64,000 nucleotides of DNA from Proteiniphilum sp. X52 (GTDB lineage: Bacteria; Bacteroidota; Bacteroidia; Bacteroidales; Dysgonomonadaceae): positions 62,001 to 126,000 of the forward strand of contig NZ_RDSD01000007.1 of NCBI RefSeq assembly GCF_003712195.1, given 5' to 3'. The first letter of the stretch is position 1. Each line of letters begins with the position of its first letter. The position numbers and the translations under genes were made by a program. A model generated the notes under the pieces. It saw only the letters and a program-made list of their open reading frames with translations. It was not told where the DNA came from and ran no database searches. Below are positions 1,013 to 13,413 of this stretch, piece after piece.

Positions 1013-4000
1013 ATGGGAATTAAAATGGATGGAATGCGCAGGATCACTCTCTCAGTCGCCCTATTATGCTGGGTGGGCCTTGGGAGTTTGTCCGCTACCG
1101 TGCAGAATGCAAGTAGTTTTCCTGCCGAGTCGATGATACACAGGTTGGAGCGACTCAATGAAATTGGAAAGACTACAGGGCAATCCGTGTCATACAACGC
1201 TACCGAGATTCAGAATGAAGAAGCTCCCGCATTTGATGCTGAAACCAACAATATGGAAGAGTGGTTGTACAAATCACTGAGCGAATCGGAATTCACATAT
1301 GAGAAGAGGAATAATAACCATTACCTCGTTGTTCGAAACAAGCAGGCGGAGCCTGAACCGGAACAAACACAGCCGGTGTCGGTTCTCTCCGGACGTGTGA
1401 CGGACATGCAAAACGAGCCTCTTATCGGCGTAAATATTGTGGAAAAAGGGACTTCCAACGGGACCGTGACCGATATAGAGGGGCGGTACTCTTTATCGGT
1501 TCCTGCCGATGCGGTGATCTTGTTTTCTTATATTGGATACACTGCCCGAGAAATACCTCGTGACGGGCGGAGCACGATAGACGTCGTATTGAATGAAGAT
1601 TCCGAATTGCTCGATGAAGTGGTTGTGGTTGGCTATGGTACACAACGCAAAGTTAATTTGACGGGGTCTGTAGGTGTGATCTCATCTGAAGACCTGATAA
1701 AGAGACCGATAGCCAATGTGTCTACCGGTTTACAGGGACTTGTTCCGGGGATGACTGTTACAGCCAATGCAAACGGAGGATTACCGGGGCAATCCAATGC
1801 TACTATACAAATCCGGGGTGTTGGCTCAAGAGGCAACAATAATCCCCTTGTATTGATCGATGGCGCGGAAGGAGATATGAACATCATCAATCCGAATGAT
1901 ATCGAAAGCATCTCAGTATTAAAGGATGCTGCTTCTGCAGCCATCTATGGGAACAGGGCCGCCAACGGAGTTATCCTGATTACCACAAAAAACATATCGG
2001 GGAACGAACGCGCGCCACGTATCAGCATTGACACATATTATGCCGTGCAAACACCCACCAAGCTCCCCAAAATGGCTGACAGCCCTACATTCATGGCATG
2101 GGAAAATGAGGCTCAGGCAAATGTGGGAGGCATTCAGAATTATACACCGGAGGATATTCAGAAAGCCATTGACGGAACAGATCCCAACTATTATGCTAAC
2201 ACCAATTGGATTGACGCAACATTCTTATCGTCAGCTCCGCAATACAACCTGAATGCCAGTGTCGACGGCAAAGCACGAAATATGGGGTACCTGCTTTCTT
2301 ACGGCTATCTGAATCAGGATGGTTTGACCGTGGGCAAATCTACACATACAAACCGGCACAATATCAGGTTAAAACTCAATACAAGAGTAGCCAACCGTTT
2401 CGACATTACAGCGAATATGGGCTATATTGACCGCCAATTCTCTGCACCTAATGCGTCTTTCGACCTTACCGGAGGTGCGTTGTATAACGCTATGCGGACA
2501 AGACCCACCGTACCAGTACGTTTTACTGATGGTCGATGGGGTTACGGGGGCGGACAAACCAATCAGGTGGCTTATCTTACCGACGGAGGTGGACAGCAGT
2601 TTTCCTCACAGGAATTTACGGGCAATTTCTCTGTAAAGATGGATATTCTCGAAGGATGGACGGCTTCTGCCAATTATATTACACGCCAGTCAAACAGTTT
2701 CAGGAACCTGTTAAGTAAGACTATCCATTTCTATTATCCGGAAACGAACGATATATGGTACACAACGAACACCCCTAACTCAATAGAAAACAAAGATTAT
2801 CGGACCCTTAGTCAAACCCTGTTCGCGCAAACCGATTATAAATTAAATATCGGCGATCACTCTCTCAACGCGATGCTTGGGTTTCAACAGGAATGGCAGA
2901 GAGCCGACCAGTTCAATGCTCTCAGAAGAAACCTGATCACGGAAAAAGACCCAATCCTTGACTTTGGTTCACCTGATTCTCAAGCTAACAGCGCAACCGC
3001 GAACCATTGGGCAATGCGTTCCGGATTTGGACGGATCAATTACAATTTCAAGGAACGTTATTTATTGGAAGCCAACCTGCGGTATGATCTTACCTCCCGC
3101 TTCATCAAAAGGAACAGGGCGGAATGGTTTCCTTCATTCTCGGGGGCGTGGCGTATTTCCGAAGAAGAGTTTATGAGCTCTACAAAGGATTATCTAGATC
3201 AATTGAAAGTCCGTGCCTCATGGGGTATATTGGGGAACCAATTCTCGACCGGATCCGACAATTACCCATACATGTCCCGTATCGCCAGTGTCACTGTTCC
3301 CACCATAGGAGGTGTGGCCAACGACGGGTACGCCGAAACCTATATCGGCAATCCCAATCTGTTATGGGAAATGCTGCATACAACCAATATCGGGATTGAC
3401 GCCAACTTCTTGAACAACCGTTTATCTTTTACCGGAGATTACTATATACGTAAAACCCGGCGAATGATATACCAGAGAGAGTTGCCCGCCGTAGGTGGAT
3501 TTCCTTCGGTCATGGATGAAAACGGAGGAGAAATGCAAAACAAAGGCTGGGAACTTGAGATTGGCTGGCAAGACCGTATAGGAACCGATTTCACCTACGG
3601 AGCCACATTTATGCTGGCAGATGTGAAAAATAAAATCACCGAATGGGAAGGTGCCATTATCGGATCTGATAATATCACTATGGTCGGTTATCCCGATAAG
3701 GCTCTTTACGGATTGGTTGCCGACGGAATTGCCGTGCCCACCGATTTTGAAAAATACAATCCTGTCTCAGGGAAATATGAAAATCCGAAATTCCCCATCA
3801 TGTCGGGAGACGCCGGATTGGTACAACCAGGTGATATAAAGTATAAGGACCTGGATGGTGACGGTGTCATTGATCTTGATAATGACCGGAAAGTGGTAGG
3901 TAGTTCCATTCCCCGCTGTACTTACTCTTTTAAAGGGAACATGGGGTACAAGGGATTCGATCTCAGCTTCCTGTTTCAGGGAGTAGGAAAAGTAGACGGA

Positions 4001-4393
4001 TATATTTACGGGCCTGCCCGCCATGCGTTCACCGATCAGTCAACCTATCCACAATGGTTCCATGCCGATCGGTATCAGTCATCCAATCCCAATCCCAATG
4101 CAGCTTATCCGCGTTTCACATACAATCAGAACTACAACCAGCGCTTTTCTACTTTCTGGATGGAAAATGCCGCCTATCTCCGGTTAAAGAATTTACAATT
4201 AGGATATACGCTTCCTACCAAACTAACTCAGAAAATCAATGTCGATCGGTGCCGGATATATACATCTGCAGACAATTTACTCACGCTTACAAATTATTTT
4301 TCTTCGGCCGATCCCGAAAGACCAGTGCAGGGCGGAGGAAACTATCCGCAAATCAAGACATTTGTGTTCGGTGTGAATATAACACTTCACTAA
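1013..4393 (+). CDS. SusC/RagA-family TonB-linked outer membrane protein
   Basis: Outer-membrane transporter that imports a ligand captured by its SusD partner, powered by TonB. At 1126 aa it has the usual family length. Order seen: signal peptide (about 1-30), an STN domain (about 40-105), a carboxypeptidase-regulatory-like domain (GRVTDMQNEPLIGVNIVEKG, about 128-200), a TonB box with EVVVVGYG, a plug domain with the LVLIDGAEGD and ILKDAASAAIYG-type segments, and a beta-barrel ending FVFGVNITLH. The STN domain marks a transducer that signals to the FecR encoded 9 bp upstream, so the locus is probably self-inducing. ATG 1013 is used; a second in-frame ATG at 1025 is possible. The substrate cannot be told from the sequence. 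Confidence 0.96.
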   Translation: MGIKMDGMRRITLSVALLCWVGLGSLSATVQNASSFPAESMIHRLERLNEIGKTTGQSVSYNATEIQNEEAPAFDAETNNMEEWLYKSLSESEFTYEKRNNNHYLVVRNKQAEPEPEQTQPVSVLSGRVTDMQNEPLIGVNIVEKGTSNGTVTDIEGRYSLSVPADAVILFSYIGYTAREIPRDGRSTIDVVLNEDSELLDEVVVVGYGTQRKVNLTGSVGVISSEDLIKRPIANVSTGLQGLVPGMTVTANANGGLPGQSNATIQIRGVGSRGNNNPLVLIDGAEGDMNIINPNDIESISVLKDAASAAIYGNRAANGVILITTKNISGNERAPRISIDTYYAVQTPTKLPKMADSPTFMAWENEAQANVGGIQNYTPEDIQKAIDGTDPNYYANTNWIDATFLSSAPQYNLNASVDGKARNMGYLLSYGYLNQDGLTVGKSTHTNRHNIRLKLNTRVANRFDITANMGYIDRQFSAPNASFDLTGGALYNAMRTRPTVPVRFTDGRWGYGGGQTNQVAYLTDGGGQQFSSQEFTGNFSVKMDILEGWTASANYITRQSNSFRNLLSKTIHFYYPETNDIWYTTNTPNSIENKDYRTLSQTLFAQTDYKLNIGDHSLNAMLGFQQEWQRADQFNALRRNLITEKDPILDFGSPDSQANSATANHWAMRSGFGRINYNFKERYLLEANLRYDLTSRFIKRNRAEWFPSFSGAWRISEEEFMSSTKDYLDQLKVRASWGILGNQFSTGSDNYPYMSRIASVTVPTIGGVANDGYAETYIGNPNLLWEMLHTTNIGIDANFLNNRLSFTGDYYIRKTRRMIYQRELPAVGGFPSVMDENGGEMQNKGWELEIGWQDRIGTDFTYGATFMLADVKNKITEWEGAIIGSDNITMVGYPDKALYGLVADGIAVPTDFEKYNPVSGKYENPKFPIMSGDAGLVQPGDIKYKDLDGDGVIDLDNDRKVVGSSIPRCTYSFKGNMGYKGFDLSFLFQGVGKVDGYIYGPARHAFTDQSTYPQWFHADRYQSSNPNPNAAYPRFTYNQNYNQRFSTFWMENAAYLRLKNLQLGYTLPTKLTQKINVDRCRIYTSADNLLTLTNYFSSADPERPVQGGGNYPQIKTFVFGVNITLH

Positions 4394-4555: not shown

Positions 4556-6331
4556 ATGAAAAAGAATACATTATTAATACTGGTTCTATTCCCGTTTCTT
4601 TTTTCCTGTAACGACAGTTTTCTGGAAAGAGCTCCTTTGGATGAACTCTCTGACGAAAACTTCTGGGAATCGGAACTACAGGTAAAGAATGCCGCTAATG
4701 CCTGTTATTGGGCTTTGTCAGGAAAGGACTTGCCCATCAACATGTCGGAAGGGCTGAGTGACAATGCTCCCTGGTATACGATGAGTGGGTGGCGACAAGT
4801 TGGTAGTGGATTGTACGGATCCGATTTCAGTACGTTGAATACCCGTTTCCGGGATTCTTACAAGCAGCTAAGAAGATGTAACCACTTCCTTAAAAATTAC
4901 ACGAGAGCTACCACGGTAGATCCCGCAATATTAGAGAGTTATGCCGGGGAAGTCCGTTTTCTAAGGGCTTTCATCTATTTCTATCTTACCAGTTTCTGGG
5001 GAGATGTTCCTTTTGTGACAGAACCTGTAAATGCTGGAGATGACGCCATGATGGCTCCTCGGACATCGAGGGAAACCATCGTCGACTTTATGTTGGATGA
5101 GTTAAAAGAAGCAGCCGAAAGTTTACCCCCACATATCAACCCTGCAACTACCGACTTCGGGCGTATCTCTGGTGCCGCAGCAAAGGCATTTGAGTCGCGT
5201 GTGGCATTACAAAACAAACGCTGGGAAAGAGCAAGGGATGCCGCCAAAGAATTGATGCCCGGCGGGCGATTCGCCTATCATCAACTTTATTCCACAGGTC
5301 GTCCGAACCAGGACTATTTTGATCTGTTTACGTTTATAGGAAGGGCCTCCAGAAATGCGAACAACAAAGAAGCCATTTTGTCGTATGTATATAATTTTGA
5401 ACTCTCCAACCCAACCCGGCATAATTTAAGTAGGGAACTACAGGTACCCGATCAGATCATTCGTTTCAATCCGACAAAATCTCTTGTCGACAGCTACTTG
5501 TGTATTGACGGATTACCGATCGACAAATCGCCATTATATAAAGGAAACGGCACCTATACACCGGCCTACAGCGCTTACGACAGTGTATTTGTAAACCGTG
5601 ATCCAAGACTCAAACAATCCATCGTATATCCCGGCTACGACAAATGGTACGGAAAAGTGGACGGTAGAGGCACAACCAATCCTGACGAAAACGCTTCCAG
5701 AACGAACATTTTCAGATCTCCCAAATTCAATAACGACGGTAGAGGTGCCGTAACTAACACAGGATATTACTGCCTGAAATATTGTGAGCCTTCAAGAGTT
5801 TCGATTTACAATCAGGATGATAATGATATTATTCTCATTCGTTACGGAGAAGTACTTCTGAATTATGCGGAGGCTATGTATAATCTGGGGAGCCTTAATC
5901 AAAGCGTAATAGACGAAACCATCAATCTCCTTAGAGACAGAGTGGGTATGAAAAAAATGGTACTGAGCGAACTGGATGCCAATGGCTTGGATCTGAAAAC
6001 GGAATTACAACGTGAACGCCGTGTGGAACTTTTCATGGAAGGGCATCGCTGGTTCGATCTGGTAAGATGGGAACAAGGATATGAATTGGGAGTGGACAAA
6101 TCTCAAACTCCAGAGCGGCAGGAAATGGGAATTTTGAAAGGTATCCGCAAGGATTATGCCTATGATCAGTCAGTATTTACATCCAGCAAGAAATTCGACA
6201 AGAATGGATTTCTTATTTTTGATGATTCCCGTGTTTTTGAAAATCCTAAAAATTACCTATTCTCCCTTCCCTACAGACAAATGGAACTGAATCCGAATCT
6301 GCGGCCAAATAACCCTGGATGGGAGGACTAA
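4556..6331 (+). CDS. SusD/RagB-family surface lipoprotein
   Basis: Lid and substrate-binding partner of the SusC transporter, anchored to the outer leaflet by lipid. 591 aa. The N-terminus has a lipoprotein signal with the acylated Cys at residue 18 (FLFSC), then ERAPLDELSDENFW, a typical SusD start. The middle contains the SusD-like segment RFLRAFIYFYL, and the C-terminal RagB/SusD domain carries RERRVELFMEGHRWFDLVRW. It follows SusC after 162 bp of AT-rich DNA with no gene, and probably shares its transcript. The downstream genes start 23 and 9 bp after each preceding stop, so one operon is likely. Confidence 0.96.
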   Translation: MKKNTLLILVLFPFLFSCNDSFLERAPLDELSDENFWESELQVKNAANACYWALSGKDLPINMSEGLSDNAPWYTMSGWRQVGSGLYGSDFSTLNTRFRDSYKQLRRCNHFLKNYTRATTVDPAILESYAGEVRFLRAFIYFYLTSFWGDVPFVTEPVNAGDDAMMAPRTSRETIVDFMLDELKEAAESLPPHINPATTDFGRISGAAAKAFESRVALQNKRWERARDAAKELMPGGRFAYHQLYSTGRPNQDYFDLFTFIGRASRNANNKEAILSYVYNFELSNPTRHNLSRELQVPDQIIRFNPTKSLVDSYLCIDGLPIDKSPLYKGNGTYTPAYSAYDSVFVNRDPRLKQSIVYPGYDKWYGKVDGRGTTNPDENASRTNIFRSPKFNNDGRGAVTNTGYYCLKYCEPSRVSIYNQDDNDIILIRYGEVLLNYAEAMYNLGSLNQSVIDETINLLRDRVGMKKMVLSELDANGLDLKTELQRERRVELFMEGHRWFDLVRWEQGYELGVDKSQTPERQEMGILKGIRKDYAYDQSVFTSSKKFDKNGFLIFDDSRVFENPKNYLFSLPYRQMELNPNLRPNNPGWED

Positions 6332-6354: not shown

Positions 6355-7128
6355 ATGAATAAATTAAAATATATAGTGTGTTCCTTATTGTTATTACTAG
6401 CATCTGGGACATTGACATCGCAAACCACTATCCGGGTATTGAACATCAATACCCGCATGTCCGGACAAATGGTCGGATACAATGCTGCCCCCTTTGCAGA
6501 TTATATTGAACAGTATAACCCTGATTTCGTGATGTTACAGGAAATAGATTACAAAACAGCACGAAACGGATTCCGTGATTTTACGACGGAACTGGCAGCG
6601 GAAACTGGATATTTTTCAGCTTTTGGACGCGCAATCGCATATTCCCAGGGAGAATATGGAGTAGCCATCCTCTCCAAATACCCTATTGAAAAAATATCCA
6701 ATACACAACTGACCGGCAACGCCAGCGAAATGAAAGAAATGCGCACTGTCTTGTTTATTGATGTAATCCTACCCGATACAGGTGAGAAAATACGTATGGC
6801 AGTAACCCACCTGGATCACTCGACCGACGGTGTAAGACAATCTATGGTGCAGCAATTGAATGGGGCTATCGGAAGTTCTTTTCCCACTTTACTGGCAGGT
6901 GATTTCAACGCATTTCCCAGTGAGACGGCAATAAGTACCGGGATGGCATCATGGAAAAGGGTATGTAATAATTTCGCTACATTTCCGGCTTCCAATCCGT
7001 CCCGTAAGATAGATTACATCTTCGCCCAACCAACCGATAAATGGAATGTAAAATCATACCAGGTATTATCCAATAGCGCGGCAATAACAGACCATTGTGC
7101 CCTGTTAGCAGAGGTTGAACTTCAATAA
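6355..7128 (+). CDS. Exported endonuclease/exonuclease/phosphatase (EEP) family hydrolase
   Basis: Metal-dependent phosphoesterase of the EEP (DNase I / inositol phosphatase / sphingomyelinase) fold. The N-terminal signal (about 1-22, cut near TSQ) puts it in the periplasm or at the surface. The EEP motifs are intact: N30/N32 in LNINTR, catalytic Glu63 in MLQEID, His152 in VTHLDH, Asp183 and Asn185 in AGDFNAF, Asp220 in KIDYIF, and the terminal Asp246-His247 pair in ITDHCAL. 257 aa, a compact single domain. It starts 23 bp after SusD. As the only recognisable enzyme in the SusCD locus it suggests a phosphate-ester substrate (nucleic acid, phospholipid headgroup or sugar phosphate); which one is not visible. 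Confidence 0.9.
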   Translation: MNKLKYIVCSLLLLLASGTLTSQTTIRVLNINTRMSGQMVGYNAAPFADYIEQYNPDFVMLQEIDYKTARNGFRDFTTELAAETGYFSAFGRAIAYSQGEYGVAILSKYPIEKISNTQLTGNASEMKEMRTVLFIDVILPDTGEKIRMAVTHLDHSTDGVRQSMVQQLNGAIGSSFPTLLAGDFNAFPSETAISTGMASWKRVCNNFATFPASNPSRKIDYIFAQPTDKWNVKSYQVLSNSAAITDHCALLAEVELQ

Positions 7129-7137
7129 GGAAATGTT

Positions 7138-7905
7138 ATGAAGAAACAAATCAATTTATACCTGATTGCATCATTCTTCTGTTTTCTAATATCCGGTTGC
7201 TCAGGAAACGATAATGAAGAGCCGGAGCCCGGGACAGAATGGGATAAAACGCGAACGGCAAGAGTGTCGTTTGTTTCCGATTTAACGGGAAATAATCCTT
7301 TTACTGCCCACAATTACAATGCAGTGAGTTCGGCAATAAAAGGAAACGACAGCCATGTTGTTATACTGGACAGGGCCAATGTAACTTATGGAACGCCACG
7401 GATTAACCCGGGAGCCAATATTGCCGTTTTAGCTGAACGATTTCCTATTTTCGTTCCTGTTTCAACAACAGAAACGGAATACAGAGGGAGCGTTCTATTA
7501 TATGAGAAACCTGTCCCAGAAATGGAACAAACAATTGTCGCAGATGCATGCAGAATGATACCGATTACTGTTGAAATTAAGCAAGGTCTTACAGTTCGTA
7601 CGGCGCTCCTCTCTTTTGACTCCGAAAATCAGATATCAGTTTCTGCGAACCTTTTCAGATCGGCCCAAACATCTTCGACCTTGGTGACCGGTACGATCAG
7701 GAGAAACCTCGTGCCTACTCTGGAATCCCTAATTTCCACACTGACCGACGGCACATATACACTGGAAATAATAGAGAATTCCGCCAAGAATAGTGAATAT
7801 GCTATTTATCTGTTCGGCTCCATGAAATGGAAGTTCCGGGATTTCACCGAGGGGTCGGTCAGCGGAAATATAAAACACTTTCTGTTACAGGTGGAGTTCC
7901 TATAA
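7138..7905 (+). CDS. Lipoprotein with a degenerate, catalytically dead EEP-like domain
   Basis: Not a family I recognised at first sight. It has a lipoprotein signal with Cys21 (LISGC) and starts 9 bp after the EEP hydrolase. Aligned by eye, the two proteins match over most of their length: HVVILDR against FVMLQE, LAERFPIFVPV against LAAETGYFSAF, VRTALLSFDS against IRMAVTHLDH, STLVTGTIRR against PTLLAGDFNA, and NIKHFLLQVEFL against the ITDHCALLAEVEL region. The catalytic positions are lost: Glu to Arg79, His to Ser159, Asp and Asn to Thr186 and Arg188, Asp220 to Ile223 and the last Asp to Lys246. Only the final His remains. I infer a non-enzymatic binding paralogue at the cell surface. Confidence 0.85.
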   Translation: MKKQINLYLIASFFCFLISGCSGNDNEEPEPGTEWDKTRTARVSFVSDLTGNNPFTAHNYNAVSSAIKGNDSHVVILDRANVTYGTPRINPGANIAVLAERFPIFVPVSTTETEYRGSVLLYEKPVPEMEQTIVADACRMIPITVEIKQGLTVRTALLSFDSENQISVSANLFRSAQTSSTLVTGTIRRNLVPTLESLISTLTDGTYTLEIIENSAKNSEYAIYLFGSMKWKFRDFTEGSVSGNIKHFLLQVEFL

Positions 7906-7996: not shown

Positions 7997-9547
7997 ATGA
8001 AAAGGTGTAAACAGATAATTTATACGCTATTGGCATTGAGTCTGGCTATATTTGCCACCTGTAGCGATGGGGAGGTCGCTGTGGATTATACCGACGATAA
8101 TGCTTACCCGCCGCCGGCAGTAAATATTACCTCTCCCACATCATTGGAAGAAGCCTTATTCCAACAAACCCAGCGGGTGACAGGGAGTATTGAATCCCGC
8201 AATGGATTACGCGACATCTATATTACATTGCTCAAAGGCAATGCTGATGTGGGATATGAAGAAATAAGCAGAAATAACAGGGTCTTTCAAATACTCGATA
8301 GTTTTCCCCATGAATTGGATTTCTCTCTGAATATATCTCTCTCCGATGCGTCGACAACAGCGATAGGCGTATTTGCTACCGATATTTATACAAAAACCAC
8401 CATTACTCCTATCGTGATAGAAAAACTCAAAGGAATACCGCCAAGGGTTACTCTCAACCCATCGGAAATCGACCAGATTGAACTTAATGAGTCCCTAACT
8501 ATCGAAGGAACCGCTTCATCCGCCGAAGATCTGGCATCCATTACCTATGCATTGGTTAGGAAAACCCCTTATCTGGAACTGTCTACACCCGGGATAATTG
8601 AAGTTGGTTCCTCTGAAACAGAGAAGAGCTTCAGTTTCGATATCACGGTGGACGATGAGAGGGCAGATGCTATCAGTGTGGTTGTGACCGATAAAGAGGG
8701 ATTTAAAACAACGGCGTATACAGACATCAAATCAATCACCGGCATACCGGAAGGCAGGGCGTTTATATTTGAGGATTTTGAAATGGCTCCTGAATGGGAA
8801 ATTATGTCTAACGCCGGAGTAATCCCTACACAGCCTTACCTGTTCTCAATAGAAGGAATTCAAGTAGGTAATCAGATAAAAAATGTAGTGACACTGAAAG
8901 AAGCAGTGGATGCTCCTTCCGGAAGTATTGACTTTGCTTTTGTCAATATCTGGAGAAATTCCAGTCGGGTACCGGTTGGCAGCAGGGGCTTCGCATACGT
9001 CAGTGCTGCTCGTTTAAGTGGAGGCCCGGTAGGACGACAGGTTGATACGGATTGGCTCGGCGGCATGACAAAAAATGCCATTGGATTTAGAATCCTTTCC
9101 CAGGAAGAAGCTGCGACCCTTGATCTGGATAATTTCTTTGAAACAACCACCGGAAACTGGGAAACATTCGAAGCTTTATCCGCTTTGGATAGTTATGTTA
9201 CTCCTGCTATGGCCAACAATGATGCCAATAGAGTATTGAGACAGCGGACTAATGCCGGAGCCAGCGGAAATTGCAGCCTGGAAATCACCTCCGGTACATA
9301 CATTGCTTTCAGACGGGTAGTTAAAGGATCGGAGGATAAACTGGGTATCATGAAAGTTATTGAGGCCGCGGACGACACGGATGCAACCGATAATGACGGT
9401 TGCAAGATAGCCGATCCAATCACCGGAGGTACTACTCCCGGAGCCTCTGCCCATTACACAGGCCCTAATCTGCCGGGATTTGTATACGAAGGAGTAACCA
9501 AACTCTACGGCAGAACCACTAAATTGAAAATAATTGTACAGCAATAA
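7997..9547 (+). CDS. Large surface lipoprotein, probable ligand-binding protein of the SusCD locus
   Basis: 516 aa, family not recognised. The N-terminus is a lipoprotein signal with Cys22 (FATC). The next 220 residues look like two beta-sandwich (Ig-like) repeats: each begins with a short proline-containing linker (PPPAVNITSPTS; PPRVTLNPSEI) and then has alternating beta strands such as VTGSIESRNGLRDIYITL and LTIEGTASSAEDLASITYAL. The C-terminal half (from about GRAFIFEDFE) resembles a jelly-roll ligand-binding domain, but I cannot name it. Position as last gene of the locus and lipid anchor match the role of surface glycan-binding proteins in other SusCD loci; the ligand is unknown. A 91-bp gap precedes it. 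Confidence 0.85.
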   Translation: MKRCKQIIYTLLALSLAIFATCSDGEVAVDYTDDNAYPPPAVNITSPTSLEEALFQQTQRVTGSIESRNGLRDIYITLLKGNADVGYEEISRNNRVFQILDSFPHELDFSLNISLSDASTTAIGVFATDIYTKTTITPIVIEKLKGIPPRVTLNPSEIDQIELNESLTIEGTASSAEDLASITYALVRKTPYLELSTPGIIEVGSSETEKSFSFDITVDDERADAISVVVTDKEGFKTTAYTDIKSITGIPEGRAFIFEDFEMAPEWEIMSNAGVIPTQPYLFSIEGIQVGNQIKNVVTLKEAVDAPSGSIDFAFVNIWRNSSRVPVGSRGFAYVSAARLSGGPVGRQVDTDWLGGMTKNAIGFRILSQEEAATLDLDNFFETTTGNWETFEALSALDSYVTPAMANNDANRVLRQRTNAGASGNCSLEITSGTYIAFRRVVKGSEDKLGIMKVIEAADDTDATDNDGCKIADPITGGTTPGASAHYTGPNLPGFVYEGVTKLYGRTTKLKIIVQQ

Positions 9548-9751: not shown

Positions 9752-11509
9752 TTATCTCATGAGTTTCGGAAAAGTCATCAGGAAGTGCAGTCCTCCATCG
9801 GGACGGTTCTTTGCCCCAATGCTCCCCTTATGGAATAATACGGCATTCTTTACGAGGGAAAGTCCCAGTCCCGAGCCGCCGGTCTTACGGGTTCTCCCCT
9901 CGTTCACCCGGTAAAAGCGTTCGAAGATACGTACAAGGTGTTTTTCATCAACACCGATACCGGTATCGTAAAATTCAAAGAAGTAAGTATTCTCATTTTC
10001 GTTATAGCAACGCACCACGATATCGATATTTTCCCCGCCATAGGAGATGGCATTTTCGATCAGATTCCGGAAGATGGAATAGAGGAGCGTACGGCTACCG
10101 TAGATCACCACGGTATCGTTTACATTCACCAGGAAATTATCCTTATTCTCCTTCAGCTTGTCAGCCAGATCATTCGACAACTCGTTCAACAACTCACTCA
10201 TCCGCACCTGTTCCAGTTCGAACCGGTCGGGTACCTCTTCGATCTTGGTCAGCATACTGATATCCTGTATCAATTCCGAAAGGCGGATAGTCTGTGTATA
10301 AGCCCTGTCGAGAAATCCACCAATACGTTCACTGTTGTCCCCATCATAATCATAAAGATTGAGAATGGTTTCCAGATAACCGCGGATACTGGTGACCGGG
10401 GTACGTAACTCATGCGCTATATTATTGGTCATTTCCTGCTTGAGCAGACGTGTTTTCTCCGATTTGGTGATATCACTGATATAAAATTCGAAACTCTCAT
10501 CCTCGAAAATGATGATCCGCACATTGAATTGTCTGCCGCTCTTCTCAATCCGTTTCGAGAACATGTTTCCTTCCCTCGGATGCACATCGATAAAATCGAC
10601 AAACTCTCCAAAAACAGGATCATCGAAAAGCAGTTCGGGCTCCAATGTGGGATTGTCGAGAATAATATTCAGGAACTGCAGGAAATGGGAATTGGCATAG
10701 ATCTCTCTCCGATCTTTTGAAAAAATGGCGATTCCCTCTTCGGAAAGTTGAAAATGCTGCAGCAGTTTCTCACGCTCAGCCGCCAATTTACGTCGATTTT
10801 CCTGCAACAGGTTGTAGTTTTCCACTATATCGGCACTCACCTCTCCCACCTCATCATCGGCAAAAACAAAACTGGCCGGTATCTTGACATCATTTCTCAG
10901 GTTCATCGAAAATTCTCTTAACTCTCTCAACGATCTGGAAAATCGGTTGGAGAAATAGAGCATCATCAATATACACGCCACGAAAAAGAGAAGGATATAG
11001 ATGATAAACGAACTTCCGGAATTGATAAATGATTGCAGTTGCACATTATACGGAACCGCCAACCGGATAAAACAACCTTCATCGTATTTTTTTGAATAAT
11101 AGAGATATTTGATATTATCACTATCCGATACACGGATATTCGACCCATGTCCGAAACTAATCGATTTCCGTACTTCGGGACGTCTCAGATGGTTCTCCAT
11201 CTTGCCAACATCCAAAAAGTTGTCATAGAGCACTCGTCCCTCCCGGTTTATAATGGTAAAACGCGCTTCAGAGGGCATATAGCGTAACAGTTCCCCCATC
11301 CGCTCCGGCTCCTTTTGCACATCAATGCCATTCTGGTTGAGATACCGGCACACAATATCGGCATTATTCTCAAGTGTACGTTCCAGACTGAGTGTGCGTT
11401 CCGTTTTGAACTGTTGCTGTTCAAAAAGGATAACCCCCACAGTGAAAAGCCCTATCATCACTGAGAAGTCAAGTAAGATACGAGTTTTAAAAGATACTTT
11501 TCGTCTCAT
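9752..11509 (-). CDS. PhoR-like membrane sensor histidine kinase
   Basis: Inner-membrane sensor kinase, 585 aa. Two membrane segments (about 9-29 and 167-186) bracket a periplasmic domain of about 135 residues. They are followed by a short linker, a PAS-like domain (about 245-350), and the kinase core: phospho-acceptor His366 in NNIAHELRTP, N-box NLIENAIS, G1 DTGIGV, F-box region IFERFYRV and G2 GGSGLGLSL. It should autophosphorylate on His366 and pass the phosphate to Asp52 of the response regulator encoded 117 bp upstream on the same strand. The pair has the architecture of PhoR/PhoB, but whether it senses phosphate is not shown by sequence. Confidence 0.93.
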   Translation of the reverse strand: MRRKVSFKTRILLDFSVMIGLFTVGVILFEQQQFKTERTLSLERTLENNADIVCRYLNQNGIDVQKEPERMGELLRYMPSEARFTIINREGRVLYDNFLDVGKMENHLRRPEVRKSISFGHGSNIRVSDSDNIKYLYYSKKYDEGCFIRLAVPYNVQLQSFINSGSSFIIYILLFFVACILMMLYFSNRFSRSLRELREFSMNLRNDVKIPASFVFADDEVGEVSADIVENYNLLQENRRKLAAEREKLLQHFQLSEEGIAIFSKDRREIYANSHFLQFLNIILDNPTLEPELLFDDPVFGEFVDFIDVHPREGNMFSKRIEKSGRQFNVRIIIFEDESFEFYISDITKSEKTRLLKQEMTNNIAHELRTPVTSIRGYLETILNLYDYDGDNSERIGGFLDRAYTQTIRLSELIQDISMLTKIEEVPDRFELEQVRMSELLNELSNDLADKLKENKDNFLVNVNDTVVIYGSRTLLYSIFRNLIENAISYGGENIDIVVRCYNENENTYFFEFYDTGIGVDEKHLVRIFERFYRVNEGRTRKTGGSGLGLSLVKNAVLFHKGSIGAKNRPDGGLHFLMTFPKLMR

Positions 11510-11533
11510 ACGACTAAAAATTAGAGCCGGGAC

Positions 11534-11575
11534 AAATTACCAATTACAAATTACAAATTACTAATTACTAATTAT
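11534..11575. repeat. Heptamer array, 6 units
   Basis: Six consecutive 7-bp units (AAATTAC, CAATTAC, AAATTAC, AAATTAC, TAATTAC, TAATTAT) with no slippage, between the response regulator and the kinase gene. It is one of five arrays in the window that share the 7-bp period but not the unit sequence. Confidence 0.85.
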
Positions 11576-11626
11576 CCAAATTGATATTGGGACATTCGCA
11601 CATGGGTTAATTATCAAATCATTGAA

Positions 11627-12328
11627 TCAGTCTTCTTTAGCGTCGACATTCAGATAATACCCGAATCCGGAGCGGTTTACAATAATACCCGCGTAATCTC
11701 CCAGCTTCTTTCTCAGGCGGGTGATATGCACGTCGACAGTACGGTCGAGCACAAACTCGTTCTCACTCCATACGCTGTTGAGTATTTCGGCACGGGTAAG
11801 CAGGTTAGGCGACGTCCGTGCCAGCAGAGAAAGGATTTCAAACTCTTTTTTAGTGAGTGACACCTCATTTCCGTCGACGGTCACACGGTTGCCCTGCAGA
11901 TCAATATTCAATCTTTTATAGCTCCAGTCGGTCGGCACAGCCTCGGCCGGCGCCATTTTAGCGAGCGCGCTACGTTTGAGCAATGCTTTTACACGGACAA
12001 GCACTTCTTTCACCGAGAATGGTTTGGCTATATAATCATCTCCCCCCAATGAAAATCCGGTGAGCATATCGTTCTCCGTATTCTTGGCCGTCAGGAAAAC
12101 AATCGGCACGAAATTTCCCGATTTTCGTAATTTCTCGGCCACTTTGAACCCGGAGATTCCACCCATCATCACATCAAGGATAACAACCCCATGCCCCCCA
12201 GTGATCATCTCCAATGCGTCCTCTCCTGAATGGGCTACATCTACGATATATCCCTCGTTCTCCAGATTGAATTGCAGGATATCGCAGATGTCCTTTTCGT
12301 CGTCAACGATTAAAATTCTATCTATCAT
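11627..12328 (-). CDS. OmpR/PhoB-family response regulator
   Basis: DNA-binding response regulator, 233 aa. The receiver domain (1-120) has the acidic pair DDE at 9-11, phospho-acceptor Asp52 (VILDVMMGG), Thr80 (VFLTAK) and Lys102 (YIAKPFS). The C-terminal winged-helix domain (about 130-230) contains the family segments LTKKEFEILSLLA and RTVDVHITRLRKKLG. It is the first gene of the two-component operon, with the kinase downstream. Three 11-bp direct repeats lie 101-133 bp upstream of its start, spaced as expected for a dimer or multimer of this family, so autoregulation is plausible. ATG 12328 follows an AGGAG Shine-Dalgarno-like stretch. Confidence 0.94.
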   Translation of the reverse strand: MIDRILIVDDEKDICDILQFNLENEGYIVDVAHSGEDALEMITGGHGVVILDVMMGGISGFKVAEKLRKSGNFVPIVFLTAKNTENDMLTGFSLGGDDYIAKPFSVKEVLVRVKALLKRSALAKMAPAEAVPTDWSYKRLNIDLQGNRVTVDGNEVSLTKKEFEILSLLARTSPNLLTRAEILNSVWSENEFVLDRTVDVHITRLRKKLGDYAGIIVNRSGFGYYLNVDAKED

Positions 12329-12428
12329 CTGTCTTCATCTCCTGATTTTTCACCGGCTGCCGGTTTTTTGATGTTACGATTATCCCCGCACCAGATCAGA
12401 AGGCGGTTTTATCTGTGTCGGTACAATT

Positions 12429-12461
12429 TCCGAAATCAACTGGAAATCGTCTGGAAATCGT
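12429..12461 (-). promoter_or_regulatory. Three 11-bp direct repeats upstream of the response regulator
   Basis: On the + strand CTGGAAATCGT occurs twice in perfect tandem (12440-12450, 12451-12461), preceded in phase by TCCGAAATCAA (12429-12439). The core GAAATC recurs every 11 bp. PhoB/OmpR-type regulators bind tandem 11-bp direct repeats, so this is a candidate autoregulatory operator. Confidence 0.55.
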
Positions 12462-12498
12462 CGCATCAATAAAATTGTCCTCCTGCGGATATTTTGCA

Positions 12499-12506
12499 CA
12501 AAAATA
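12499..12506 (-). promoter_or_regulatory. Candidate -7 element, two-component operon
   Basis: TATTTTTG on the - strand fits the Bacteroidetes -7 consensus TAnnTTTG. No TTTG is found at the best spacing upstream, so the call is tentative. It would give a 5' leader of about 160 nt containing the 11-bp repeats. Confidence 0.3.
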
Positions 12507-12656
12507 CGACATGGATGTGACAATGCCGTCACAAAAATGTTACAAAATTATTAAGATTGCAGTTCAGGGATTCGCCGCTTGACTGCGAAACTTGTTTGAG
12601 TCTTGGTGAGGCGCGAAGGAAAAACACAAAGTCAAATAAATTTTGTTCCGCGCTTA

Positions 12657-12672
12657 CTTAACGAAAACGTTC
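12657..12672 (+). repeat. Dispersed motif CTTAACGAAAACGTTC, copy 1
   Basis: A 16-bp motif with short inverted arms AACG/CGTT that recurs, exactly or nearly, at 19024, 38966, 54640 and 61714, always between genes and usually just before a start. Here the -7 element of queC begins two bases after it. A CAAA-AT-rich-TTTGT stretch lies about 20 bp upstream, as in the copies at 38966 and 54640. Confidence 0.6.
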
Positions 12673-12673
12673 G

Positions 12674-12681
12674 TACCTTTG
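12674..12681 (+). promoter_or_regulatory. -7 element of the queC-queF promoter
   Basis: TACCTTTG matches TAnnTTTG. It lies 65 bp before the queC ATG. The nearest TTTTG upstream (12641-12645) is about 28 nt away, farther than the usual 19, so the -33 part is weak. Transcription would start near 12688, within or just before the first leader hairpin. Confidence 0.45.
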
Positions 12682-12686
12682 CAATG

Positions 12687-12725
12687 AAAAGCAACGCTTT
12701 TCCGTGTAGCTTAGGTACCACCTAA
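12687..12725 (+). other. Two small hairpins in the queC leader
   Basis: Perfect 6-bp stems with 3-nt loops: AAAAGC/GCTTTT (12687-12692, 12696-12701) and TTAGGT/ACCTAA (12711-12716, 12720-12725), the second followed by an A-rich stretch to the ATG at 12739. PreQ1 riboswitches are small and precede queuosine genes, but I could not fit the preQ1-I consensus pseudoknot here, so the function is open. Confidence 0.35.
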
Positions 12726-12738
12726 AAAACAAAGAACA

Positions 12739-13413
12739 ATGAAAGATTACCAAGAACAGGATGCCCTTGTGCTCTTCTCGGGCGGACAGGACTCCACGAC
12801 CTGCCTCTATTGGGCAAAACGACAATTCAGAAACACCTACGCGCTCTGTTTCATCTACGGACAGCGTCACTCCCAGGAAGTGGAAAATGCGCGACGGATC
12901 GCTGACATGGCCCGCACTCCGTTTCAAGTATTGGATGCGGGTATCATCTCCCGATTGGCACCGAATTCACTGACCGATTTCTCCGTGGAGATGGATGAAG
13001 GGAAACCGGCCGGCTCTTACCCTAATACTTTTGTTCCGGGCAGAAACCTGTTGTTCCTCACTTTTGCGGCCACCCTCGCCTATGCACAGGGAGTCAAACA
13101 TTTAGTGACAGGGGTGTCAGAAGCCGATTACAGCGGTTATCCCGATTGTCGCGACACTTTCATCCGCTCAGCCAATGCCACACTCAACCTGGCGATGGAT
13201 AACCAGTTTGTGATCCATACGCCGCTTATGTGGCGCAATAAGAAAGAGGTATGGCGATTGGCTGATGAGCTGGATGTTTTCGACATTGTAAAAAATGAAA
13301 CCCTTACCTGCTATAACGGAATTCTGGCCGAAGGATGCGGTCATTGTCCCGCTTGCCGGTTACGGAACAAGGGTTTACAGGAATATTTGGCAGAACGGGG
13401 AAACAACCTGTGA
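12739..13413 (+). CDS. queC: 7-cyano-7-deazaguanine synthase QueC
   Basis: Cytosolic enzyme that converts 7-carboxy-7-deazaguanine to preQ0 with ATP and ammonia, in the queuosine tRNA-modification pathway. The N-terminal PP-loop ATP-binding motif SGGQDS is at 14-19. Four Cys near the C-terminus (191, 200, 203, 206; CGHCPAC) form the family zinc site. Length 224 aa is typical. It is followed after 81 bp by queF, the next step of the pathway, so the two are probably co-transcribed from the promoter at 12674. Confidence 0.96.

Follow-up and report, generated by a model that had tools for sequence, protein, structure and literature searches.

A 255-aa lipoprotein encoded in a SusCD operon of Proteiniphilum sp. 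X52 is read here as a pseudoenzyme derived from the EEP family that now serves as an accessory ligand-binding lipoprotein of the SusCD uptake complex, a reading to which we give a probability of about 0.5. The gene of this protein, called pseudo-EEP below, directly follows that of a live EEP-family hydrolase (EEP-A) in the window, i.e. the whole 64,000-nucleotide stretch of DNA that was analysed. The fold of pseudo-EEP, the loss of its catalytic residues, its linkage to EEP-A and the purifying selection acting on it are all supported by computation.

Operon layout and predicted folds

All genes of the operon lie on the forward strand. A FecR-type anti-sigma factor at its head (182-1003; PF04773, 9.8e-17; FecR_C, 2e-8) is followed by a SusC-type TonB-dependent transporter with Plug, beta-barrel and CarbopepD_reg_2 domains (1013-4393), a SusD/RagB lipoprotein (4556-6331; PF07980, 2.3e-48), the exported EEP-A of 257 aa (6355-7128; PF03372, 4e-20) and pseudo-EEP (7138-7905), which has a lipobox by reading (LISGC21) and a predicted EEP fold. 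Next comes a gene for what reads as a lipoprotein in the SusE position (7997-9547), for which no curated family match over the cut-off was found in Pfam. An open reading frame and Pfam scan returned the coordinates, the lengths of 257 and 255 aa and the gene order SusC-SusD-EEP-lipoprotein just as the original prediction gave them.

Beside the operon, positions 9752-12739 encode a sensor kinase and a response regulator, PhoR/PhoB-like by reading, with a queC-like gene directly after them. Between these, P. acetatigenes (L012, 15073-19725) has phoU (PF01895) and pst-like genes (by reading). Across the 96 contigs of the window's genome, PhoU matched only as two weak stretches within one 699-aa frame; a strong two-domain PhoU is additionally present in G014 and G021.

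EEP-A retains an intact catalytic set (N32, E63, H152, D183, N185, D220, D246 and H247), the roles of these eight positions being those that we take to hold for the EEP family, and among 22 EEPs from the pair loci the set is kept in 176 of 176 alignment cells. Its AF2 model has a pLDDT of 86, and the first solved structures listed by Foldseek against the PDB are nocturnin (6mal, 2.7e-16) and a Bacteroides EEP (3g6s, 4.2e-16). By reading, the signal peptide of the window's enzyme is a plain one with no lipobox, and the enzyme is probably periplasmic. The original prediction had contrasted a lipid-anchored dead copy with a live enzyme lacking an anchor; this describes the window correctly and does not extend to the whole family, as the EEP-A orthologues of L012, L017 and L029 carry a Cys whose surroundings resemble a lipobox (by reading).

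The relationship between the two proteins had been proposed from an alignment made by eye, which needed proof because neither BLASTP nor the family databases showed any similarity. Pseudo-EEP has no Pfam or NCBIfam match up to E 1, PF03372 and the SusE/SusF domain included; BLASTP against EEP-A aligned nothing but fragments 9-15 residues long, with E-values of at least 7.4; and a sequence search of the PDB returned a single unrelated match (E 0.49). In a profile comparison (hhalign) of the mature regions of 15 lipoproteins and 22 EEPs, however, the probability was 80.6 and the P-value 1.3e-5, with a score of 43.1 as against a maximum of 22.0 for 200 column-shuffled EEP profiles and 17.4 for a reversed profile. 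The local alignment covers 103 columns (51-153); four rows had been cut at an earlier Cys and keep a few signal-peptide residues, which lie outside this range. The probability falls in smaller comparisons, to 16 for the ten near lipoproteins alone, 17 for the three most distant ones alone and 24 for a first comparison of ten lipoproteins with fourteen EEPs, signal peptides included. Against EEP-A alone it is 60, and 48 against EEP-B alone (a second EEP type, described below); as possible sources of the dead copy, these two types gave hhalign scores of 37.9 and 35.5, respectively.

Structure prediction leads to the same family. An AF2 model of pseudo-EEP from nine sequences has a pLDDT of 84 and a pTM of 0.79, the five models ranging from 84.0 to 62.2 with two at only 62. 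Foldseek found 89 PDB matches at E up to 0.001, and all 50 of those listed are EEPs, among them 4ruw (the best, E 2.7e-9), 3teb, 3mpr and TDP2 of several animals. The TM-scores by query of these 50 are moderate (0.48-0.60) and their identities 8-13%. The strand order and the motif positions are colinear with those of the live enzyme. The structural check thus yielded the EEP fold and no other, and the claim that the two proteins align over most of their length is borne out by the profile score together with the predicted fold. By prediction, then, the lipoprotein is an EEP-fold protein, as AF2, Foldseek and the profile comparison support.

Occurrence of the pair, residue loss and selection

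The lipoprotein was found in 11 of the 101 genomes of the window's family (Dysgonomonadaceae), in three of 15 genera. A scan of genome contigs gave eight loci, three in Proteiniphilum, three in Dysgonomonas, one in a Porphyromonadaceae MAG and one in a strain labelled Parabacteroides. A scan of viral contigs gave no relative. A profile search matched six of 393 genomes in the order sample, three of which were accepted (G000, G451 and G464), four of 395 in the phylum sample and two of 395 in the class sample, the only accepted one in the latter two being the window's own genome; these searches scored up to six candidates per genome, so that members may be missed. The G464 protein as query against 199 genomes of its own family added G878. 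In total, 16 loci from 15 genomes were accepted: those of the 11 family genomes, L014, G451, two in G464 (L021 and L025/L029) and G878. The pseudo-EEP family is therefore rare.

Seven weak hits from the order, phylum and class samples (L022, L023, L024, L026, L027, L028 and L047; E 6e-5 to 8e-4) were judged to be chance matches. They match only the first 108 profile positions, that is the signal peptide, the lipobox and little beyond, and no EEP is present among the open reading frames of at least 150 aa (120 aa for L047) in the 3-kb stretches read. They are left out of all counts; with them, an EEP would adjoin in 16 of 23 loci. The accepted distant hits match further along the profile (L020 at 93-260, L021 at 156-257, L025/L029 at 9-208), and their acceptance was not blind, as match range and neighbours were seen together.

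In all 16 accepted loci an EEP gene lies immediately upstream of pseudo-EEP, so that the pair, which might have been confined to one genome, recurs in 15. A second EEP, EEP-B, follows immediately downstream in seven of the 16 (L013, L018, L019, L010/L043, L020/L041, L029/L040 and L030/L042), and there pseudo-EEP lies between two live EEPs. A lipoprotein gene occupies the SusE position in 13 of the 16 loci, directly or after EEP-B, as read from the open reading frame lists; this is a count of gene place. The reverse search, with EEP-A as query and a cut at E 1e-40, found an EEP of 58-100% identity in 10 of the 101 family genomes, and in all ten the dead copy lies next to it. The remaining pair carrier of the family, G107, falls below the cut with an EEP-A only 35% identical to the window's. 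Four further matches, at 37-39% identity, are EEP-B types by reading, two of them in the pair operon (G068 and G065). The other two occur alone (L058, 1495-2343; L060, 1486-2277), with neither pseudo-EEP nor SusCD genes in the 3.7 kb read.

When the lipoprotein profile is aligned globally with that of the EEPs (hhalign -glob), N32, E63, H152, D183, N185 and D220 of the enzyme correspond to S47, R79, S159, T186, R188 and I223 of the lipoprotein. The last motif, Asp246-His247, can be placed in three registers, on G243-N244 (hhalign), N244-I245 (gapless tail) or K246-H247 (original prediction). Depending on which of these is taken, the enzyme's residue is kept in one, three or two, respectively, of 120 cells in 15 pseudo-EEPs (the window and the other accepted loci, with G014 left out as nearly identical to L012); the cells concerned are Asn188 of L013, Asp244 of L019 and L010, and His247 of the window. 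The window's protein accordingly keeps no catalytic residue, or one His in a single register. The replacements first proposed are thus right for R79, S159, T186/R188 and I223; Asn32, which had been passed over, is lost as well (Ser47), and K246 depends on the register. The one remaining His that had been described is no family trait, since in the K246-H247 register it occurs in one of 15 rows, the window's own.

Several of the replacements recur. The Asn32 column holds Ser in 13 of the 15 pseudo-EEPs, the Glu63 column Arg or Lys in 12 (Asn or Ser in three), the His152 column Ser in nine, the Asp183 column Thr in 12, the Asn185 column Arg or Lys in 11 (Asn, Ser or Ala in four) and the Asp220 column Ile, Val or Leu in all 15. 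Taken together, the alignments support a dead EEP that is predicted to be free of metal ligands, and Arg or Lys at the Glu63 and Asn185 columns is as expected for an anion pocket that works without metal.

Pseudo-EEP has a dN/dS of 0.20 at a dS of 0.16 (window versus L012) and of 0.11 at a dS of 1.03 (mature L019 versus L010), values that indicate a selected protein, while EEP-A gives 0.13 and 0.056 for the same pairs; pseudo-EEP is thus under purifying selection, somewhat looser than that on EEP-A. With the N244-I245 register, 227 of 20,000 random eight-column sets are as conserved as the eight columns of the former catalytic set when 15 rows are used, and 943 of 20,000 with the near ten. Conservation of the former active site thus exceeds that of most random sets, though modestly.

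Cell location, ligand and function

The lipobox Cys21 is invariant in alignments of ten (A3) and twelve (A7) rows, and pseudo-EEP is encoded in a SusCD operon, two genes downstream of SusD in the window. PMC5080379 describes acidic export signals on surface lipoproteins of Sus-like systems, with the motif K-(D/E)2 or Q-A-(D/E)2. In 14 of 15 rows, three to five of the 15 residues counted after the Cys are acidic; for four rows the count began at an earlier Cys. Surface exposure of pseudo-EEP is only suggested by these features, because the strict motif is absent from the window's lipoprotein (by reading) and the stretch counted in L030 contains no acidic residue.

Hints of a ligand come from neighbouring genes. 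The operon is directly followed in three loci of two families by NAGLU (GH89) genes (L018, 13218-15422; L040, 3461-9282, with two; L042, 4539-7894), accompanied in L040 by a sulfatase that also matches SGSH_C and followed in L042 by a DUF5009 gene, HGSNAT-like by reading, whose match is below the cut-off. In another genus of the window's family (L038, 5745-8673), PI-PLC X, alkaline phosphatase and GDPD genes come directly after the pair. Glycerate kinase is encoded near the operon in L018 (15548-16693), L019 (18729-19874) and L043 (17359-18504), as a fragment in L040 (2757-3377), and also beside the lone EEP-B of L058 (207-1349). The frame of the L040 fragment runs into a permease-like remnant (by reading). 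A search of 14 pair carriers and one other genome found any NAGLU in three of the 15 and any glycerate kinase in six. Where a pair carrier has a glycerate kinase, it lies within 10 kb of pseudo-EEP in four of five (G065, G075, G084 and G464), which are not all independent cases, G075 and G084 being alike in gene order; the G878 gene is on another contig. Family searches of the window's own genome matched neither NAGLU nor glycerate kinase. Additionally, the PGAP2IP domain PF23226 scores over its cut-off in all three EEP-A proteins scanned, in none of one EEP-B and in neither of two further EEPs encoded by the window's genome, though one of these matches below the cut-off; it is a hint only, because PF03372 scores higher in every EEP matched.

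A GPI-anchor substrate was considered from the PI-PLC, alkaline phosphatase and GDPD genes of L038, NAGLU, DUF5009 and PF23226, which hint at it; teichoic-acid, heparan-like and glycerate-containing substrates would also fit parts of the data. Overall, NAGLU, PI-PLC, GDPD and glycerate kinase as neighbours hint at a phosphorylated glycoconjugate and fix no one substrate.

The proposed mechanism starts from an EEP (DNase I-like) domain that would have lost its metal- and phosphate-activating residues and become a binding lipoprotein; surface exposure, binding, ligand class, place of hydrolysis and regulation are the parts that we infer. The lipid anchor would keep pseudo-EEP in the outer membrane, probably facing outward. 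Its former cleft, with Ser for Asn32 and mostly Arg or Lys for Glu63 and Asn185, could hold the head group of a phosphorylated glycan or glycolipid, neither using metal nor cutting it. The ligand would then be imported by SusC/SusD, and EEP-A, with EEP-B where present, would hydrolyse the phosphoester, probably in the periplasm, while FecR, with a sigma factor encoded outside the window, might report the transport event. The original idea, that a phosphoester is captured at the cell surface to serve the enzyme or SusD, is plausible; of the two, a role in SusCD import is the better fit, because the window's EEP-A, with its plain signal peptide, is probably periplasmic. Some EEP-A orthologues may be lipoproteins too, which would allow a complex of enzyme and pseudoenzyme instead.

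Such a complex leads to the main rival, to which we give appreciably less weight than to a ligand-binding role: pseudo-EEP might be a subunit or allosteric partner that forms a heterodimer with EEP-A and tethers, activates or otherwise regulates it, and would then bind no substrate for uptake. The adjacency of EEP-A in every accepted locus, the co-occurrence in all ten family genomes with a close EEP-A and the position between two live EEPs in seven loci speak for it, as does the window's enzyme, which has no lipobox and could be tethered by a lipoprotein partner. Adjacency, however, would also be expected of a binding lipoprotein encoded in the operon, and EEP-B types are also found without pseudo-EEP in the stretches read around L058 and L060.

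Two further explanations seem improbable. Pseudo-EEP could have kept or gained another catalytic activity through residues of the cleft (e.g. D78/N81, S159 or W231-R234), and six non-canonical residues (S47, N81, S159, W231, K232 and R234) are indeed invariant in a nine-row alignment (A5), but S159 and K232 are lost in distant members. Moreover, no EEP lacking the Asn/Glu/Asp/His set is known to us to be active. Alternatively, its part in the SusCD complex could be that of a spacer or assembly factor that binds no ligand; a spacer role has been proposed for another PUL lipoprotein family, DUF1735 (PMC11216935), yet a mere spacer would not need the above-average conservation towards which the former active-site columns tend, modest as this effect is. 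That pseudo-EEP is no EEP relative and its fold match a generic alpha/beta sandwich is very unlikely: low identity to the listed solved EEPs and empty sequence searches would fit this, but every listed Foldseek match is an EEP, the profile score is about twice that of the best of 200 decoys, and strands and motifs are colinear with the live enzyme.

An accessory ligand-binding lipoprotein remains the preferred reading. A more specific version of it is tentative at best, namely that a killed EEP has given rise to a new class of phosphate-recognising surface lipoprotein, in which the fixed charge of Arg/Lys replaces Mg2+ and holds the phosphoester that the live partner later cuts, within a dedicated SusCD pathway for phosphodiester glycolipids (e.g. 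inositol- or glycerol-phosphate glycans). In this we take the Asn position, Arg or Lys in pseudo-EEP, to be phosphate-contacting and the Glu position to be a metal ligand.

Relation to known systems

Live Bacteroides EEPs are already known from PDB entry titles. Solved examples are 3g6s (BVU_0621), 3mpr and 4c1r (Bt3783, a mannosyl-6-phosphatase by its entry title, which presumably belongs to a mannan locus); their fold is common to both proteins of the pair and their catalytic set is kept by EEP-A, whereas pseudo-EEP lacks the set and is a lipoprotein. Surface glycan-binding proteins (SGBPs) in the SusE/SusF position are likewise lipoproteins encoded after SusC and SusD, in a FecR-headed operon, but pseudo-EEP differs from them in its predicted EEP fold and in matching no Pfam family. 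An SGBP with an EEP fold was not found in a limited search of open-licence papers. Among the papers listed by further searches of this kind (SusCD with EEP, pseudoenzymes, GPI and teichoic acid), none describes the dead-EEP/SusCD arrangement, and what would be new here is a dead, lipid-anchored EEP in a SusCD operon.

Further parallels lie in two other settings. According to PMC3128124, the surface lipoproteins of a Sus-like system can join SusC in a single complex: the Gpd complex of Capnocytophaga canimorsus comprises SusC, SusD, a single enzyme and additional lipoproteins that are proposed to be glycan binders, all of which co-purified with the SusC homologue. The pair operon has a similar composition, but the Gpd enzyme is an endo-beta-N-acetylglucosaminidase, and its two further lipoproteins resemble lectin or galactose-binding folds rather than the enzyme (PMC3128124). 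Pseudoenzyme/enzyme pairs in general, as outlined in PMC11266112, place an inactive homologue beside an active one, often as binder, scaffold or regulator; the present pair differs in its EEP family, its SusCD setting and the lipid anchor of the dead copy.

SusCD loci are mostly interpreted from the glycoside hydrolases that they encode; here phosphoesterases stand at the core of the locus. It also has a conserved dead copy, whose likely ligand may be guessed from the live twin. If the proposed binding is true, pseudo-EEP would mark out those SusCD systems whose imports are phosphorylated glycans or lipid head groups, and would provide a clear case of an enzyme turned receptor within one operon.
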